A DNA stretch of 51,460 nucleotides, from the NCBI GenBank assembly GCA_947573485.1, contig CANPGB010000023.1, forward strand, positions 1 through 51,460, in the 5' to 3' direction. This DNA is from an uncultured Porphyromonadaceae bacterium. Its GTDB lineage: Bacteria; Bacteroidota; Bacteroidia; Bacteroidales; Muribaculaceae. The notes beneath the pieces were generated by a model that was given only the letters and a program-made list of their open reading frames with translations, made no database searches and had not been told where the DNA came from. The translations under genes were made by a program, and so were the position numbers. Of the stretch, positions 12,410 to 34,464 are shown in pieces (position 1 is the stretch's first letter; each line of letters opens with the position of its first letter).

Positions 12410-12492
12410 TCATTGCCATGTGGAAAATTTTTGCCAATTTTGCACTTTGAAACGGGCCATAGGCTAAACTTGTGGCCACACAAGACTTGTAC

Positions 12493-13521
12493 ATGACTTT
12501 TACAGCCGACATAATAGCCTCACAGATTGGCGGTACCGTGGAGGGCCGCGGCGATGTAGCGGTAAGCGATTTCGCCAAGATAGAAGAAGGGCGTCCAGGA
12601 ACCATCACATTTCTTGCCAATCCGAAGTACGAGCATTACCTCTACACCACCGAGGCCTCGGTGGTGCTCGTGCGCAGCGACCTTGAGCTCAGCGCTCCCG
12701 TCAAGGCCACGCTTATCCGCGTAGCCGACCCTTACAGTGCGCTTGCCGCCCTCATGGGTATAGCCGCGCAGGCACTCAGACCCTCGCACCGCGGCATAGA
12801 GCAGCCGTGCCATATTGCCGAAGGTGTTGAAATCTCAGACGACTGCTACGTTGGTGCTTTCGCCTACATAGGCAAAGGCGCCCGCATAGGCCGCAACGTG
12901 AAGATTTATCCTCAGGTATATATTGGCGAAGGTGTGAGCATAGGCGACGACACCGTGCTCTACCCCGGGGTGAAAGTTTACTACGGCTGCCGCATAGGTT
13001 CGCGCTGCACCATTCATGCCGGTGCCGTTATCGGCAGCGACGGTTTCGGTTTCGCCCCCGATGCGAAGGGCGTATTCCACAAGATAGAGCAGCTCGGCAT
13101 AGTGCAGATTGACGACGATGTGGAAATCGGCGCCAACACCACCGTAGACCGCTCTACCATGGGTCGCACCCACATATCCACCGGCGTCAAGCTCGACAAC
13201 CTCATACAGGTTGCCCACAATGTGGAGATAGGCAGTCATACTGTAATGGCAAGCCAGACTGGCATTGCCGGTTCTACTAAAATCGGCGCACACTGCATGG
13301 TGGCCGGTCAGGTGGGCTTCGCAGGCCATATCACCGTAGGCGACGGCGTGACAGTAGGCGCGCAGTCGGGCATAGCCAAAGGCGTAGCACCGGGCAGCCG
13401 CATAATGGGTTCCCCGGCGATGCCTGCAGGCGACTACGCCCGCCTTGTAGCGGCCCAGAAGCAGCTTGCGACAGCCCTGCGCCGCATCGACGCCCTCGAA
13501 AAGAAATTAAACGAAAAATAA
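12493..13521 (+). CDS. lpxD: UDP-3-O-acylglucosamine N-acyltransferase
   Basis: A 342-residue LpxD, which adds the N-linked hydroxyacyl chain in the third step of lipid A synthesis. The ATG at 12493 ([14 protein letters not shown]) was chosen because Bacteroides homologues begin at this point; an in-frame ATG seven codons earlier is possible. The N-terminal uridine-binding domain ([24 protein letters not shown]) precedes a long left-handed beta-helix of hexapeptide repeats. The catalytic His lies in [11 protein letters not shown]. The C-terminal helix ([20 protein letters not shown]) closes the trimer. First gene of lpxD, lpxC/fabZ, lpxA. Confidence 0.95.
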
Positions 13522-13537
13522 ATCATACTTCTTTGCA

Positions 13538-14920
13538 ATGAAGCAGATAACCCTTAACGGCGAATTTACCCTCAGCGGCAAAGGCCTGCACACAGGCGCA
13601 CAGCTGACGGCCACATTCTGCCCTGCCCCCGATAACCACGGATACAAGATACAGCGCACCGACCTGGAAGGCCAGCCGATGCTTGATGCCGTTGCCGAAA
13701 ACGTAGTGTCGACCATGCGCGGCACCGTAATAGGCAAAGGCGACGTAACAGTGAGCACCATAGAGCACGCCATGGCAGCCCTTTATGCCAGCGGTGTCGA
13801 CAACTGCCTCATCAAGGTCGACGGCCCCGAGATTCCTATCCTCGACGGCAGCGCCAAACCTTTCTACGAGAGCATACAGAGCGTAGGTCTCACCGAGCAG
13901 AACGCCGACAAAGACTTTTTCTACGTAAAGCACAAGATTGAGGTTTGTGACCCCGACTCGGGCTCGAAACTCATGCTTCTGCCCGACGACGAGTTCAGCC
14001 TCGACGTGAAGATCAACTTCAACAGCAGCGTTCTCGCCAACCAGTATGCCACGCTCGACCATGTGAGCGACTTCGGCGCCGAAATGGCCGGAGCCCGCAC
14101 CTTTGTATTCGTGCGCGAGATAGAGCCTCTGCTCAAAGCCGGCCTTATCAAGGGCGGCGACCTTGACAACGCTATCGTTATCTACGAGCACAAGAAGACT
14201 CAGGAAGAGCTCGACCACCTCGCCGACCTCATGGGCGTGCCTCACCACGATGCCGACGCCTTCGGCTTCATCAACGAGCGTCCGCTGTCGAGCCCCAACG
14301 AACCTGCGCGCCACAAGCTCATGGACCTCATCGGCGACATTGCCCTGATAGGCCGTCCGCTCAAAGGCCGCATCATAGCCACCAAGCCCGGCCACACTAT
14401 CAACACCCAGCTTGCCAAGGCACTTCGCAGCGAAATCAAACGCCAGGAAGTTCAGGCTCCTATCTACGACCCCAATGCAGCACCTCTTATGGATAACAAT
14501 GAGATCCGCCGCTGCATACCTCACCGCTATCCCTTCCTCCTCGTTGATAAAATCATCGACAAGAGCGAACACTATATCGTTGGTGTGAAGAACGTTACCG
14601 CCAACGAGCCCTTCTTCCAGGGCCACTTCCCGCAGGAGCCTGTAATGCCCGGTGTACTCCTGGTGGAGGCCATGGCACAGACCGGCGGCCTGTTAGTTTT
14701 AGGCTCGGTAGAAGATGCCGAACGCTACTCGACCTACTTCATGAAGATTGACAACGTGAAGTTCCGTCAGAAAGTAGTTCCCGGCGACACTCTCATTTTC
14801 CATGTATCGTTCATGACTCCGCTTCGCCGCGGTATGGCCGTGATGAAAGGCCGCGCCTTTGTAGGCGAGAAAGTAGTGTGCGAGTGCGAGTTCATGGCCC
14901 GAATCATCAAAAACAAGTAA
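13538..14920 (+). CDS. lpxC/fabZ: Bifunctional UDP-3-O-acyl-GlcNAc deacetylase / 3-hydroxyacyl-ACP dehydratase
   Basis: A 460-residue natural fusion typical of Bacteroidetes. Residues 1-~305 are LpxC, the zinc deacetylase that commits precursor to lipid A. Zinc ligands are His77 (STIEHAMAA), His259 and Asp263 ([10 protein letters not shown]), with the general base Glu76 and His286 in KPGHTINTQ. Residues ~320-460 are FabZ, the hot-dog dehydratase of fatty acid synthesis, with His363 (FFQGHFP) and Glu377 (VLLVEAMAQ). The fusion puts the enzymes that share and compete for hydroxyacyl-ACP on one chain. The gene starts 16 bases after lpxD and is followed by lpxA after six. Confidence 0.97.
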
Positions 14921-14926
14921 TCGAAC

Positions 14927-15751
14927 ATGACACATCCTCTGGCTTGCGTCAGCCCTGAAGCGCGCATAGCTGACAATGTCGAAATCGGCCCCTTCGTCAC
15001 TATCCACGGCAATGTGGAGATTGGCGAGGGCACCGTTATCGGCAGCAATGTCACTATCCACGGCAATGTGGAGATTGGCGAGGGCACCGTTATCGGCAGC
15101 AATGTCACTATCTTCGAGGGCTCGCGCATAGGCAAGAACTGCAAGATTTTCCCCGGTGCCGTAGTAGGCGCCATACCGCAGGACCTGAAGTTCCGCGGCG
15201 AGGAAACGCTCGCAATCATCGGCGACAACACCACCCTGCGCGAGTGCGTGACCGTAAACCGCGGCACTGCAGCCAAAGGGCAGACCGTAGTTGGCTCGAA
15301 CTGCCTCATCATGGCATACAGCCACGTAGCGCACGACTGCATCATAGGCAACGGCGTGATTATCAGCAACGCCACCCAGCTCGCCGGTGAGGTGGTGGTT
15401 GACGACTGCGCGGTGATAGGCGGCGGCAGCCTCGTGCACCAGTTCTGCCACATAGGCTCGTATGTAATGCTGCAGGGCGGCGCGCTTGTCAACAAAGACA
15501 TACCGCCCTACGTCAAGGCCGCCCGCGAGCCCATAAGCTACACGGGTATCAACAGCATAGGCCTGCGCCGCCACAACTTCGCCCCCGAAACGATAGCACA
15601 GATTCAGGAGATTTACCGCTACCTATATATGAGCGGGCTCAACATCTCCGACGCTATCGCCCGTATCGAGGCCGAACTTCCCGCCACCCCCGAGCGCGAA
15701 ATAATCCTCGACTTCGTGCGCAACTCGGGCCGCGGTGTGATAAGAGGTTAA
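14927..15751 (+). CDS. lpxA: UDP-GlcNAc O-acyltransferase with an extra beta-helix coil
   Basis: A 274-residue LpxA, the first enzyme of lipid A synthesis. It is a trimeric left-handed beta-helix of hexapeptides followed by a helical C-terminus (IAQIQEIYRYLYMSGL). The HVAHD catalytic signature is at 133-137, and IPQDLKF and GSLVHQF are family landmarks. The family is usually about 255-262 residues, and the excess is explained by a perfect tandem duplication. Residues 24-41 and 42-59 are identical (VTIHGNVEIGEGTVIGSN), three hexapeptides each, which is one complete coil. The reading frame is intact and all catalytic parts lie downstream of the insertion, so the protein is probably functional with a longer N-terminal helix end. 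Confidence 0.95.
   Translation: MTHPLACVSPEARIADNVEIGPFVTIHGNVEIGEGTVIGSNVTIHGNVEIGEGTVIGSNVTIFEGSRIGKNCKIFPGAVVGAIPQDLKFRGEETLAIIGDNTTLRECVTVNRGTAAKGQTVVGSNCLIMAYSHVAHDCIIGNGVIISNATQLAGEVVVDDCAVIGGGSLVHQFCHIGSYVMLQGGALVNKDIPPYVKAAREPISYTGINSIGLRRHNFAPETIAQIQEIYRYLYMSGLNISDAIARIEAELPATPEREIILDFVRNSGRGVIRG
14996..15112 (+). repeat. Perfect 54-bp in-frame tandem duplication inside lpxA
   Basis: Unit one is 14996-15049 and unit two is 15050-15103, identical over all 54 bases. They are followed by a nine-base start of a third copy (GTCACTATC, 15104-15112), which is the homology the duplication would have used. No base differs between the units, not even at third codon positions, so the event is very recent or the copies are kept equal by recombination. 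Confidence 0.97.
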
Positions 15752-15764
15752 GACACATATATTC

Positions 15765-16127
15765 GCATGGCCGGAGGGTCTGTCGCGCGCCATATCTATA
15801 AGTGGCGTGAGGAAAGTCCGGGCAACACAGGGCACCATATTTTCTAACGGGAAGCTATCGGTAACGGTAGGGTTCAATGTGACAGAAAACAACCGCCCCG
15901 CTCCGGCGAGGCAAGGGTGAAAAGGTGAGGTAAGAGCTCACCGGGCACCGCAGCAATGCGGTGTGCCGCACAACCTATGGGTTGCAAGGTCAAGTATACC
16001 GGCATCTAAGGGCTGCCCGTCCATTGCCGGGGGGTAGACTGCGCAGATAAATGACAGACGGACAGGTGTATCCCGCACTCCAACGGTAGACGCCTCCCAC
16101 ATAACCCGGCTTATACTCCGGCCATGC
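15765..16127 (+). ncRNA. rnpB: RNase P RNA (bacterial type A)
   Basis: The catalytic RNA that trims tRNA 5' leaders. Terminal stem P1 is a 12-bp perfect pairing (GCATGGCCGGAG at 15765-15776 with CTCCGGCCATGC at 16116-16127). Universal core pieces are present: GAGGAAAGTCCGGGC, ACAGAAA, GGGTGAAAAGGTG, GTAAGAGCTCACCG, AAGGTCAAG and, near the 3' end, AACCCGGCTTAT. The T run GATTTTTT directly after P1 would terminate the transcript. It begins only 13 bases after the lpxA stop, and no clear promoter fits that gap. Confidence 0.95.
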
Positions 16128-16156
16128 GATTTTTTACATAAAATACAATTCCCGCC

Positions 16157-26406: not shown

Positions 26407-26889
26407 TCAGAGGTTTTCTACCTTCTGCGCAAAGTCGAACATAAGGAGTGCGGCCTGAGCAGCCTCGGTGCCTTTGTTGCCGACTTTACCACCGGCACGG
26501 TCGAGGGCGTCCTGCTCGCAGTCGACGGTGAGGACACCGAAGATTACGGGTATGTCGCACTCGCTGTTGAGGTGTGTTATGCCCTGGGTAACGCTCTGGC
26601 ACACATAGTCGAAGTGGGGTGTGCCGCCGCGGATAACGCATCCGAGGACTACGATAGCGTCGTAAAGGCCGCTTTCGATGAGTTTAGAGGCTGCAAAGGT
26701 GAGTTCGACGGCACCGGGCACCTCGAAGGTGTCGATAACGTCGTCGCCGAGGCCCTGGCGTTTAAATTCGTCGAGGGCGCCTGCCATGAGGGGTTCTGTG
26801 ATATGGCTGTTCCAGAGTGTGCGCACAACGGCCACGTGCATGTCGCGTGCCTTGGCGAAGGGGTTGATTTGGGGAGCGTAGGTTGACAC
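26407..26889 (-). CDS. ribH: 6,7-dimethyl-8-ribityllumazine synthase
   Basis: A 160-residue lumazine synthase, the penultimate step of riboflavin synthesis. It joins 5-amino-6-ribitylaminouracil with dihydroxybutanone phosphate, usually as a pentamer or icosahedral shell. Family marks are VAVVRTLWNSHITEPL, TFEVPGAVELTFAA, and GCVIRGGTPHFDYVC with the catalytic His region. GVLTVDCEQDALDRAGG contributes the phosphate site. The product starts MSTYAPQINPF, normal for Bacteroidetes. The upstream region consists of repeats, so the promoter could lie within them; none could be assigned with confidence. Confidence 0.95.
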   Translation of the reverse strand: MSTYAPQINPFAKARDMHVAVVRTLWNSHITEPLMAGALDEFKRQGLGDDVIDTFEVPGAVELTFAASKLIESGLYDAIVVLGCVIRGGTPHFDYVCQSVTQGITHLNSECDIPVIFGVLTVDCEQDALDRAGGKVGNKGTEAAQAALLMFDFAQKVENL

Positions 26890-27122
26890 TATACTAAAGG
26901 AAAAAGTTTAAAGGATAAAGGGTAAAGGATAAGTCAAAAGTAAAAAGGATAAAGGGTGGTGAAGGATAAGTCAAAAGTAAAAAGGATAAAGGGTGAAAGA
27001 CAAGTCAAAAGTAAAAAGGATAAAGGGTAAAGTATTAGAGGATTGCCATTTTTTGACTTTTGACTTCTGACTTTTGACTTTTGACTTTTGACTTTTGACT
27101 TTTAATTAAAGCAGAGCTTTAA
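26890..27122. repeat. Simple-repeat island: three 27-bp copies facing a heptamer array
   Basis: No gene is seen. A 27-bp unit beginning AAGTCAAAAGTAAAAAGG and ending ATAAAGGGT occurs identically at 26931-26957, 26968-26994 and 27002-27028. After a short centre, the heptamer TGACTTT is repeated seven times (27054-27102, one copy TGACTTC). AAGTCAAAA in the first set is complementary to the TTTTGACTT of the array, so the two halves can pair over long distances. A nine-bp hairpin AATTAAAGC-AGA-GCTTTAATT (27104-27124) ends the island and overlaps the PfkB stop. Confidence 0.85.
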
Positions 27123-28034
27123 TTAAATCTTCTGCCACTGCTCAGCTATTGCCTTGGCGGCCTGCGCGGCGCTGCGAGCTGCGGCACCGATTATGGCTTC
27201 GCGGGTGGGCGCGTCGGGAGCTTCGAGGGCTTTGGCGTCGAGGTCTCGCTCGGCTATCATGGCCACTACTCCGGCGGCGGCTCCGGCGTTCCAGATAAGG
27301 GTGGAACATATGTCGGCGGGTATTTCGACGCTGCTCACCTCCTTGCCGGTGTAGTAGCTTATGCGGTGGTTGGCGACGTCGACGCTCACAAGCGAGCGGC
27401 AGTAGAAGTCGATGTGGTCGTGATAGAGTGAGTCGGTGTTGTCGATGCCGAAGATGAGTTTGAGGTCGATGTTGCGGGCTATTACCACGTTGGCAAGCTC
27501 GAGGTTCTCGAGGATAGCGGGCATTACGCGCGTTATGCGGGGTTCCTGAACGGGGAGGAAGCCGGGCATGTAGACGAGGATAGCCTTGCGCTCGGCGCAG
27601 TTTGCCAGGAATCGGCTCAGGCGCGGACGCATGCGGGCGTCGAGGGCGTAGTAGCCACCGAAGAGCACGATGTCGCCTTCGTCGACGCGCGGCCATACGA
27701 TGTCGAAGCAATCGTCGGGGTACTGCTCGTAGCGGGTGACGCTCTCGGGCACCGACGAGGTGTCGGCAGCGACAAAAACGTTTATAGGCGTACGTCCCTC
27801 GGTGAAGCGGTCGAGCGACGAGAGGTCGACACCGCTCTCCTTGAGGTATGCGGCCACGATGTCGCCCACAGGGTCGGCCGAGGCCTCGGAGGCCATGACC
27901 ACATTATATTTGTCGCGCGCGAGGATAGCGGCGGCGTTGAGCACGCGTCCGCCCGGCATATTGCCCAACGGACGGCCCTTGGCATCGAGCACGAGGTAGA
28001 GGGCGCACTCGCCTATACATATTATTTTTTTCAT
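27123..28034 (-). CDS. PfkB-fold protein lacking the catalytic Asp
   Basis: A 303-residue member of the PfkB carbohydrate kinase fold. The N-terminal half has IGECALYLVLD and PGGRVLNAA, the sugar-contact region of the family. In active kinases the C-terminal motif is GAGD, whose Asp is the catalytic base. Here the matching segment is WNAGAAAG (248-255), with Ala252 in the Asp position and Asn249 in place of the first Gly. That predicts loss of normal phosphotransfer. It overlaps the KdsD-like gene by ATGA, so the two are made together. It may be a regulatory or binding subunit, or a kinase with altered chemistry. Length and the rest of the fold are intact, which argues against a decayed gene. 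Confidence 0.85.
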   Translation of the reverse strand: MKKIICIGECALYLVLDAKGRPLGNMPGGRVLNAAAILARDKYNVVMASEASADPVGDIVAAYLKESGVDLSSLDRFTEGRTPINVFVAADTSSVPESVTRYEQYPDDCFDIVWPRVDEGDIVLFGGYYALDARMRPRLSRFLANCAERKAILVYMPGFLPVQEPRITRVMPAILENLELANVVIARNIDLKLIFGIDNTDSLYHDHIDFYCRSLVSVDVANHRISYYTGKEVSSVEIPADICSTLIWNAGAAAGVVAMIAERDLDAKALEAPDAPTREAIIGAAARSAAQAAKAIAEQWQKI

Positions 28035-32225: not shown

Positions 32226-33010
32226 TGCTCGATCTCAGGCACGAGAATCTCGACCGCTATATGATGCCTCTGCGCGAGGGCGGCTCCCTGCCTGCTCTCG
32301 CCGAGGCTTCGGACGGCTTCAAATATGTGGTGAAGTTCCGCGGTGGCGGACATGGTTCAAAGGCTCTCATCAGCGAGCTCATAGGCGGCGAGATAGCCCG
32401 CAAAGCGGGGCTCCGCGTGCCCGAGCTTGTGTTTCTTGACCTCGACGAGGACTTCGGCCGCACCGAGGGCGACGAAGAGATACAAGACCTGCTGCGGGCG
32501 AGCACAGGTCTCAACATAGGGTTGCATTTCCTCTCGGGCGCTCTTGCCTGGGATGCGGCAACAAACCGCACCGACGCCACCACAGCCTCGCGCATAGTGT
32601 GGGTCGATGCTTTCCTGACCAATGTTGACCGCACCGCACGTAACACCAACATGCTGCTGTGGAACCGCGAACTATGGCTCATAGACCACGGCTCGTCGCT
32701 CATCTTCCACCACTCGTGGGAGGGATGGGAGAAAGCAGCTCTCTCGCCTTTTGCCTACGTTAAAGACCACGCTCTGCTGCGCCAGGCCTCGGCCCTTGAG
32801 GAGGCCGACGAAGAACTGCGGCGGATAATCACCCCGGAGTTTGTCGACAGCCTCGTGGACACCATACCCGAAGTGTGGCTCGAACAGGCCTCGGCAGTTA
32901 TCCCTCCGGCCGAGCAGCGGGAGGTATACCGCACTTTTCTGAAGACGCGTCTTTCAAACTCAAAAATCTTTACCGACCATGCAATCGCAGCCCGCAAAGC
33001 ACTTATATGA
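32225..33010 (+). CDS. HipA-like kinase (HipA_2 type)
   Basis: A 261-residue protein of the compact HipA-like kinase family, about 60% of the length of E. coli HipA. Kinase features: VVKFRGGGHGSKALISE with Lys37 and a glycine-rich loop, catalytic TNVDRTARNTN with Asp135 and Asn140/Asn142, and metal-binding IDHG with Asp154. This follows the HipA order Lys, Asp/Asn loop, DxG-like Asp. No HipB-like helix-turn-helix gene is beside it. Instead the start overlaps purD by one base and the 3' end overlaps a DUF3037 gene by 32 bases. I recall HipA_2 and DUF3037 genes as frequent neighbours. The target is unknown. Confidence 0.85.
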   Translation: MLDLRHENLDRYMMPLREGGSLPALAEASDGFKYVVKFRGGGHGSKALISELIGGEIARKAGLRVPELVFLDLDEDFGRTEGDEEIQDLLRASTGLNIGLHFLSGALAWDAATNRTDATTASRIVWVDAFLTNVDRTARNTNMLLWNRELWLIDHGSSLIFHHSWEGWEKAALSPFAYVKDHALLRQASALEEADEELRRIITPEFVDSLVDTIPEVWLEQASAVIPPAEQREVYRTFLKTRLSNSKIFTDHAIAARKALI

Positions 33011-33368
33011 GTATGCGGTGATACGCTACTGCCCCCGCGTGGAGCGCGAGGAGTTTGTCAACGTAGGCCTGGTGATGATGTGCAAGCGCCGCCGCTGGCT
33101 GCGCGCGGCCACGGCTATCGACAGCGCCCGCGTGGCGGCTTTCATGCCCGGGGCCGACCTTGATGCCGTGCAGGCTCAGCTCGACGCTTTTGTATCGGTG
33201 GCCAAGGGCGACAATTCGCCCATAGGGCAACTTGAGGCTCACGAACGTTTCCGCTGGCTCACGGCAGTGCGCAGCGCCTGCATAGGCACGTCGAGGCCGC
33301 ACCCGGGTTTGACGGAGAATCTCGATGAGACTTTTGAGAGGCTTATGGGTGAGTTAGTTAGGAGTTAG
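32979..33368 (+). CDS. DUF3037 family protein, partner of the HipA-like kinase
   Basis: A 129-residue protein with the DUF3037 pattern: YEYAVIRYCPRVEREEFVNVGLVMMC near the N-terminus, then basic RRRWLRAA and HERFRWLTAVR. It begins inside the kinase gene (32-base overlap in another frame), which implies coupled translation. It has no helix-turn-helix or membrane segment. A role as antitoxin, adaptor or substrate of the kinase is possible but not shown. The last codons and the TAG stop (33366-33368) lie inside a GTTAGGA heptamer array, so the C-terminus LVRS is encoded by repeat sequence. Confidence 0.85.
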   Translation: MQSQPAKHLYEYAVIRYCPRVEREEFVNVGLVMMCKRRRWLRAATAIDSARVAAFMPGADLDAVQAQLDAFVSVAKGDNSPIGQLEAHERFRWLTAVRSACIGTSRPHPGLTENLDETFERLMGELVRS

Positions 33369-33440
33369 GAGTTAGAAGTTAGGAGTTAGGAGTTAGGAGT
33401 TAGGAGTTAGGAGTTAGGAGTTAGAAGTTTGGAGTTTGGA
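33357..33440. repeat. Twelve-unit GTTAGGA heptamer array
   Basis: Twelve consecutive seven-base units: GTTAGGA with variants GTTAGAA at 33371 and 33420 and GTTTGGA at 33427 and 33434. It starts within the DUF3037 coding end. Every reading frame of the array meets TAG within 21 bases, so unit changes alter only the last residues. The remaining spacer to 33483 is AT-rich and shows nothing else. Confidence 0.9.
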
Positions 33441-33483
33441 GTTGATAATTTAGTAATTAATAATTAACAAATAAATAACAGTT

Positions 33484-34464
33484 TTGCGACTGTCGATATT
33501 ACTCGGAATCAGCCACTCGCGTGGCTTCAATATAGCTCTTGCGGTGTGTGCCGCGGCGGCAGCCATAGCGTTCTATGCCATGGGCTACACCATGCCGCTC
33601 ACGGGCGACAAGGGGCTTGTCCTGCCGTCGGCCAACATGTGGGTGCCGGAGGCTGCCGCCGACTTCTGGGTGGGGCTTTGCGGTAGCGCCCTCACGGTGG
33701 TTATTATGCTGCTGTTGAACAAGGTGTTCAATGTGCTGAGGTCTATGTCGTCGCTCTACATCGGGCTCTTCGCCCTTATGCAGCTTGCCACCCCTGACCT
33801 CTTCACCCAGTTCTACACGGGCACGCTTCTGGCGATAGTGGTTCCGGCATGTATCTTCCTGCTTCTGAGCTGCTACCGCGATACTTCGGCCACTCGGCAC
33901 GTGTTTCTGCTCTTCGCCTTGCTCTCGGCTTTCGGCGCCACGCAGTATTGCTTTTTAATATACATGCCGGCGTTTATCATTGGCTGCGCACAGATGCGTA
34001 TTTTCAACATGCGCAGCCTGTTGGCTATCTTCATGGGCATTGCCACGCCCTGGATTCTACTCTTGGGCTTCGGCATAGTGAGCCCGGAAGACTTTGATAT
34101 GCCGTCGTTTGTGAGCATATTCTCGGTAATAAGCGGCGACGACACTCTGCTGTTGCTTATCGCAGTGGGTTTCAGCACGGTTACGATGCTGTTGTTCTAT
34201 GTGCTCAACCTCATGAAGACGATAGCCTACAATGCGCGTGCGCGCGCTATCAACGGCGTTTTTGTAGTCACGGCCCTCACTACGGTTATAGCCATGGCTG
34301 CCGACTACAACAATATGATTTCGTATGTGCCGATGCTGAACTTCTGCGCATCAATGGAAGCCACACACTACCTCTCGACCCACCGCGCCGATAAATCGGT
34401 GTTCGCAATAATAATTCTCATAGCGGTTTACGCCGCCCTCTTCGCATGCCAAACAATAATATAA
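33484..34464 (+). CDS. Polytopic membrane protein with TTG start
   Basis: A 326-residue inner-membrane protein with about nine hydrophobic helices (for example FNIALAVCAAAAAIAFYAMG, FWVGLCGSALTVVIMLLL, LLAIVVPACIFLLLSC, ILIAVYAALFACQTII). The frame opens after a TAA at 33472, and no ATG precedes the first helix. The TTG at 33484 (read as MRLSILLGI) is therefore the likely start; the next ATG would cut into a helix. I do not recognise the family. The 3' end overlaps pdxB by 19 bases, suggesting a coupled pair, though no metabolic link is evident. Confidence 0.78.
   Translation: MRLSILLGISHSRGFNIALAVCAAAAAIAFYAMGYTMPLTGDKGLVLPSANMWVPEAAADFWVGLCGSALTVVIMLLLNKVFNVLRSMSSLYIGLFALMQLATPDLFTQFYTGTLLAIVVPACIFLLLSCYRDTSATRHVFLLFALLSAFGATQYCFLIYMPAFIIGCAQMRIFNMRSLLAIFMGIATPWILLLGFGIVSPEDFDMPSFVSIFSVISGDDTLLLLIAVGFSTVTMLLFYVLNLMKTIAYNARARAINGVFVVTALTTVIAMAADYNNMISYVPMLNFCASMEATHYLSTHRADKSVFAIIILIAVYAALFACQTII

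Follow-up and report, generated by a model that had tools for sequence, protein, structure and literature searches.

Solenoid folds are thought to have grown by duplication of turns, and their coils have mostly diverged too far to show the event. The lpxA gene considered here lies in a stretch of 51,460 nucleotides (the window), which is contig 23 of a 2.88-Mb genome assembled in 49 contigs and 99.96% complete. It carries a tandem repeat in which the DNA of the two copies has stayed identical. The matched length of the enzyme hardly varies among the relatives sampled, and the gene allows a direct test of whether one complete turn can be added to a trimeric beta-helix enzyme and be tolerated. 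The reading favored here, which is probable though well short of certain, is that one left-handed beta-helix coil of a housekeeping lpxA was recently duplicated in tandem and in frame.

The two 54-bp copies agree in 54 of 54 bases and are followed by nine more bases that match the first 9 bp of the unit (Table 1). The resulting array is 117 bp long (14996-15112), perfect, confined to a single locus, and does not extend beyond either end (TRF score 234, 100% matches). The duplication is in frame, at codon phase 0, and each copy encodes VTIHGNVEIGEGTVIGSN, with a net charge of about -2.2 at pH 7; by their sequence these 18 residues would make up one turn of the left-handed beta-helix, composed of three hexapeptides. 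The extra unit is upstream of the conserved catalytic residues. The in-frame unit of one coil's length and its place ahead of the catalytic residues had been put forward in the original prediction and are borne out here, as is the lengthening of LpxA described below. At random, about 5e-28 exact adjacent 54-mers are expected in the window; with 60% prior identity between coils the chance is about 1e-12 per site.

The identity of the gene rests on several lines of evidence. The whole protein passes the curated cut-offs of two LpxA families, NF003657 (341.3 bits; cut-off 226) and TIGR01852 (323.7 bits; cut-off 231.05), and its family scores, its lpxD and lpxC-fabZ neighbors, and its invariant residues all liken it to LpxA, for which the solved relative is the Bacteroides fragilis enzyme (4r36/4r37). 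The gene order is lpxD, lpxC-fabZ, lpxA, and then RNase P RNA; TRF lists no array in lpxD. From family traits, the window protein is predicted to be a homotrimer with acyltransferase activity and with active sites between the subunits. Unlike the other LpxA proteins examined, it has one extra 18-residue coil unit near its N-terminus.

Table 1. Features of the lpxA locus and its 54-bp array (positions in the window)
Feature	Position	Strand	Evidence
lpxD, upstream; another beta-helix acyltransferase	12472..13521	+	NCBIfam NF002060, 406 bits
lpxC-fabZ fusion, directly upstream of lpxA	13538..14920	+	NCBIfam NF009667, 678.9 bits
lpxA, acyl-ACP--UDP-GlcNAc O-acyltransferase, 274 aa	14927..15751	+	NCBIfam NF003657, TIGR01852
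54-bp unit, copy 1, codons 24-41	14996..15049	+	TRF, base-by-base identity
54-bp unit, copy 2, codons 42-59, same bases as copy 1	15050..15103	+	
First 9 bp of the unit a third time (VTI codons), proposed pre-existing short repeat for slippage	15104..15112	+	
RNase P RNA, after lpxA	15767-16129		

LpxA was translated from 140 of 141 loci (L067, which has ambiguous residues, was left out); two of these loci are the window's own, and the other 138 represent 121 distinct proteins. The window protein has 274 residues, compared with 257-267 in the 138 other loci, and 83 residues precede its PQDLKF-type motif, compared with 64-71. When it is aligned with 97 of the 121 distinct relatives (alignment A1), exactly residues 24-41 are gapped in 97/97, which supports an extra unit. 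At the sequence level these homologues thus differ by a whole coil unit, with the extra unit in one genome only.

Whole-genome searches give LpxA matches in 147 of 158 genomes of the family, 146 of 159 of the order, and 120 of 158 of the phylum; within the genus, 46 of 49 genomes have a match at a 360-bit cut, and 49/49 when paralogues are counted. Removal of the window's own genome and of repeats leaves 444 other genomes. In one of them, G066, the match is truncated by the end of a contig and misses the coil; none of the 443 in which the coil is covered has an extra one, as judged by eye from match spans. A 56-residue query across the duplication junction was also searched against 397 family genomes (reporting limit 1e-16) and 393 order genomes (1e-15). 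It scores 108.2 bits in its own genome and no more than 63.5 bits in any other reported match, although a divergent two-coil LpxA below the reporting limits could be missed. The other matches number 15, one in G031 and the rest in 14 genomes of the order. Direct reading shows a single coil in G031 and in seven of the order matches, four more order matches have single-coil spans, and G812, G856, and G880 fall outside this check. No copy from another strain was found: an 18-base stretch matches seven viral contigs, none of which has a tblastn match to LpxA at E 1e-3, and a literature search confined to one collection found no published report of a coil duplication in LpxA. Within what was searched, and as far as sequence comparison goes, the coil duplication is unique to the window genome.

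Two other irregularities appear among the LpxA matches. A distant genome of the same phylum has two adjacent LpxA-class matches (G434:C73:85082-86642), 47% and 49% identical to the query, and three genomes (G230, G449, and G488) have their matches within possible fusions, open frames that at 571, 552, and 535 aa are about double the usual length.

If the copy number had been mis-set during assembly, the true gene would have one unit, or three or more. This is unlikely. The array of 117 bp is shorter than common reads, and the reading frame is kept. In a sample consisting of the window and twenty 20-kb stretches (451,460 bases, about 16% of the genome), the lpxA array is alone among 48 rows in combining 100% matches with a period longer than 14; the lack of a second one argues against an artefact, and no genome-wide repeat or assembly trouble is seen across the sampled bases. 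Tandem repeats are known to lead assemblers into error, but the errors described in the source consulted are collapses of repeats rather than added perfect copies (PMC6868369).

For a genuine duplication, the likeliest mechanism is ordinary DNA slippage or unequal exchange acting on a repetitive fold, variation in coil number being already known. In the ancestral lpxA, each of two coils may have carried a VTI codon triplet, at a distance of 54 bp; mispairing of these triplets over about 9 bp, by replication slippage or unequal exchange, would have duplicated the intervening 54 bp. The insert would keep the reading frame and the coil register together because the spacing is set by the 18-residue turn of the fold. 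In alignment-based counts on the 121 relatives, VTI occurs at both places one coil apart in 73; in their DNA, all nine bases of the pair are identical in 5/121 and at least eight of nine in 25/121. Such pairs make a short direct repeat at 54 bp plausible as the ancestral state, on the evidence of the relatives rather than of this lineage.

The same tendency is visible in the spacing of internal repeats. Exact repeats of at least 9 bp were scanned for in the first 570 bp of lpxA from the 121 relatives, at codon-multiple offsets from 3 to 162. They occur in 23 of 121 genes at an offset of 54 bp, 26 at 36, 29 at 126, and 11 at 144, with two to four genes at each of 18, 72, 90, 108, and 162; offsets other than multiples of 18 have at most one gene each, and 51 and 57 have none. 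The fold therefore puts slippage-prone repeats in hexapeptide register, which is a simple reason for such duplications tending to keep both the frame and the register. From fold geometry, a 36-bp event should break the threefold register, and selection may have removed such cases.

The event had originally been called very recent, and that holds in one sense: it is recent relative to the divergence of the gene from its relatives, since 45-59% of the fourfold sites shared with the ten nearest relatives (by DNA identity) differ. In absolute terms the claim is less well supported. The unit has 13 synonymous sites, and zero differences among so few bound dS only loosely, below about 0.23 at 95%. 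The duplication could be older than it looks, or the copies could have been kept alike by gene conversion. More tentatively, and with the odds rather against it, this may be a newborn coil in a system in which beta-helix codons self-template growth and shrinkage that preserve both frame and register, so that the species may segregate one-, two-, and three-coil forms of LpxA.

Whether the added residues are accommodated as a turn is a separate matter. On a coil profile built from neighboring coils of relatives, the junction coil (residues 38-55) scores 16.6 bits, compared with a mean of 0.85 (SD 6.3) for the homologous coil in relatives; this is slightly more than the 99th percentile over all windows scored, 15.9. 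Shifting the frame of the junction coil gives negative scores in 16 of 17 cases. The test is supportive rather than decisive because the one-hexad shift scores 14.8, the neighboring coil 20-37 scores 12.6, and the first junction hexad resembles the training coils. The Pfam Hexapep score is 108.2 bits, compared with 94.9 in one relative, and a gap-free alignment pairs residues 20-54 with residues 26-60 of E. coli LpxA (1lxa), a stretch of nearly two coils. Identical copies can stack, as in the designed beta-helix SaBeH, whose identical 18-residue units assemble non-covalently into a beta-helix (PMC12081914); SaBeH has the same unit length as the window repeat but, as described there, is a synthetic self-assembling peptide that involves no gene duplication. 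Stacked identical copies also stack like charges, which counts against a coil. From these sequence comparisons, the extra 18 residues probably form one. The profiles also favor the original prediction that the helix register is preserved.

The structural prediction is less clear. The best of five AlphaFold2 models has a mean pLDDT of 90.0 (the others, 78.7-82.4) and superposes on B. fragilis LpxA (4r36) at 0.9 A, so that the remaining protein is modeled with the same fold; residues 23-40 form a strandless bulge with pLDDT below 50. A single-copy relative has a mean pLDDT of 83.4, with residues 1-60 at 86-97 and normal strands at the coil site. It is conceivable, then, that the extra 18 residues bulge from the helix in an enzyme that works or is weakened but tolerated. 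This is improbable: the bulge leaves the coil question undecided because the input alignment was gapped at the extra unit in 97/97 relatives and so invites such a result, whereas the residues themselves fit hexapeptide profiles and match E. coli LpxA as noted above. A weakened enzyme might be backed up by a second LpxA-like gene in the same genome (L142:1379-2161, minus strand; G000:C11). Its product, about 35% identical, passes the family cut-offs narrowly (243.9 against 226 and 238 against 231.05 bits), and, as judged by eye among the matches listed, at least 43 of the 49 genomes in the genus, this one among them, have a similar gene. It may or may not share the job of LpxA; back-up is doubtful because two LpxA-invariant positions are changed (Q172 to E and K88 to R).

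The window LpxA keeps all 43 columns that are invariant in 97 relatives (the window being excluded from the count). Of the 80 columns with at least 95% conservation it keeps 79, and departs only at residue 258, with E for D. The invariant residues kept include Q85, D86, K88, H133, H136, D137, Q172, N209, and R215, which presumably cover the HxxHD and QDxK motifs and the N and R of the nucleotide site. By motif, we take H136, downstream of the array, to correspond to the histidine numbered H125. In LpxA, H125 is the catalytic histidine (PMC6408518). Judged on this conservation, the two-unit LpxA is probably tolerated. Under the favored reading of a coil duplication, the extra coil would stack on its twin, the active sites between subunits would shift as a rigid block, and LpxA would stay functional, making the change near neutral.

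The coil could instead have been gained under selection, for example for a more stable or longer trimer or for a new partner surface. A precedent is found in beetle antifreeze proteins, in which natural isoforms differ by whole 12-residue coils (6-8 or 7-11 repeats) and coil number is reported to alter activity (PMC8038014). Those proteins bind ice, consist of many similar repeats, and belong to gene families, whereas in this lipid A enzyme a single coil is duplicated. Across the samples from the family, order, and phylum, the LpxA match spans otherwise hardly differ, and no result here shows an advantage, so that selected gain is quite improbable.

Most improbable of all is the original proposal that on/off slippage tunes lipid A synthesis, with reversible changes in copy number adjusting LpxA activity or stability as a phase-variation device: the array is known from one genome, no other copy number was found in the relatives searched, a 54-bp unit never shifts the frame, and in E. 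coli the LpxA step is reported to be reversible and LpxC to be the committed enzyme (PMC12444477), so that a modest shift in LpxA would not necessarily affect lipid A. The proposal has some appeal, since an array with 63 bp of perfectly matching direct repeat may be unstable; under the favored reading, too, a unit would be expected to be lost or gained now and then without any switch in frame. On E. coli plasmids, direct repeats of 35 and 82 bp recombine independently of RecA, mainly by deletion, and expansion was hardly seen in the work described (PMC7063769). NeuO offers an analogy: it is likewise a homotrimeric acyltransferase with a left-handed beta-helix, and its activity is tuned by the number of N-terminal variable tandem repeats, which are 7 bp long, shift the frame, and code for an extension that the crystal does not resolve (PMC3046976). 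The lpxA unit differs in being 54 bp long, a multiple of three, and in lying within the helix sequence, so that repeat number does not switch the frame as it does in NeuO. With LpxC as the committed step and a frame-neutral unit, the proposed switch is unlikely.

Other repeats in the genome are of different kinds. Window positions 26902-27103 hold two arrays, one with 3.8 copies of a 34-bp unit and one with 7.6 copies of TTTTGAC; they are flanked by open reading frames that end at 26886 and 26889 and by another at 27123. Arrays of the heptanucleotide (A/G)GTTAGG are dispersed in the genome, on many contigs as well as at 33356-33443 of the window; a search for three copies with up to two mismatches gives 112 overlapping matches (74 forward and 38 reverse), compared with none for a reversed-pattern control. 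The window array of this heptanucleotide starts inside the end of the open reading frame 32979-33368, and the rest of it precedes the open reading frame at 33484.
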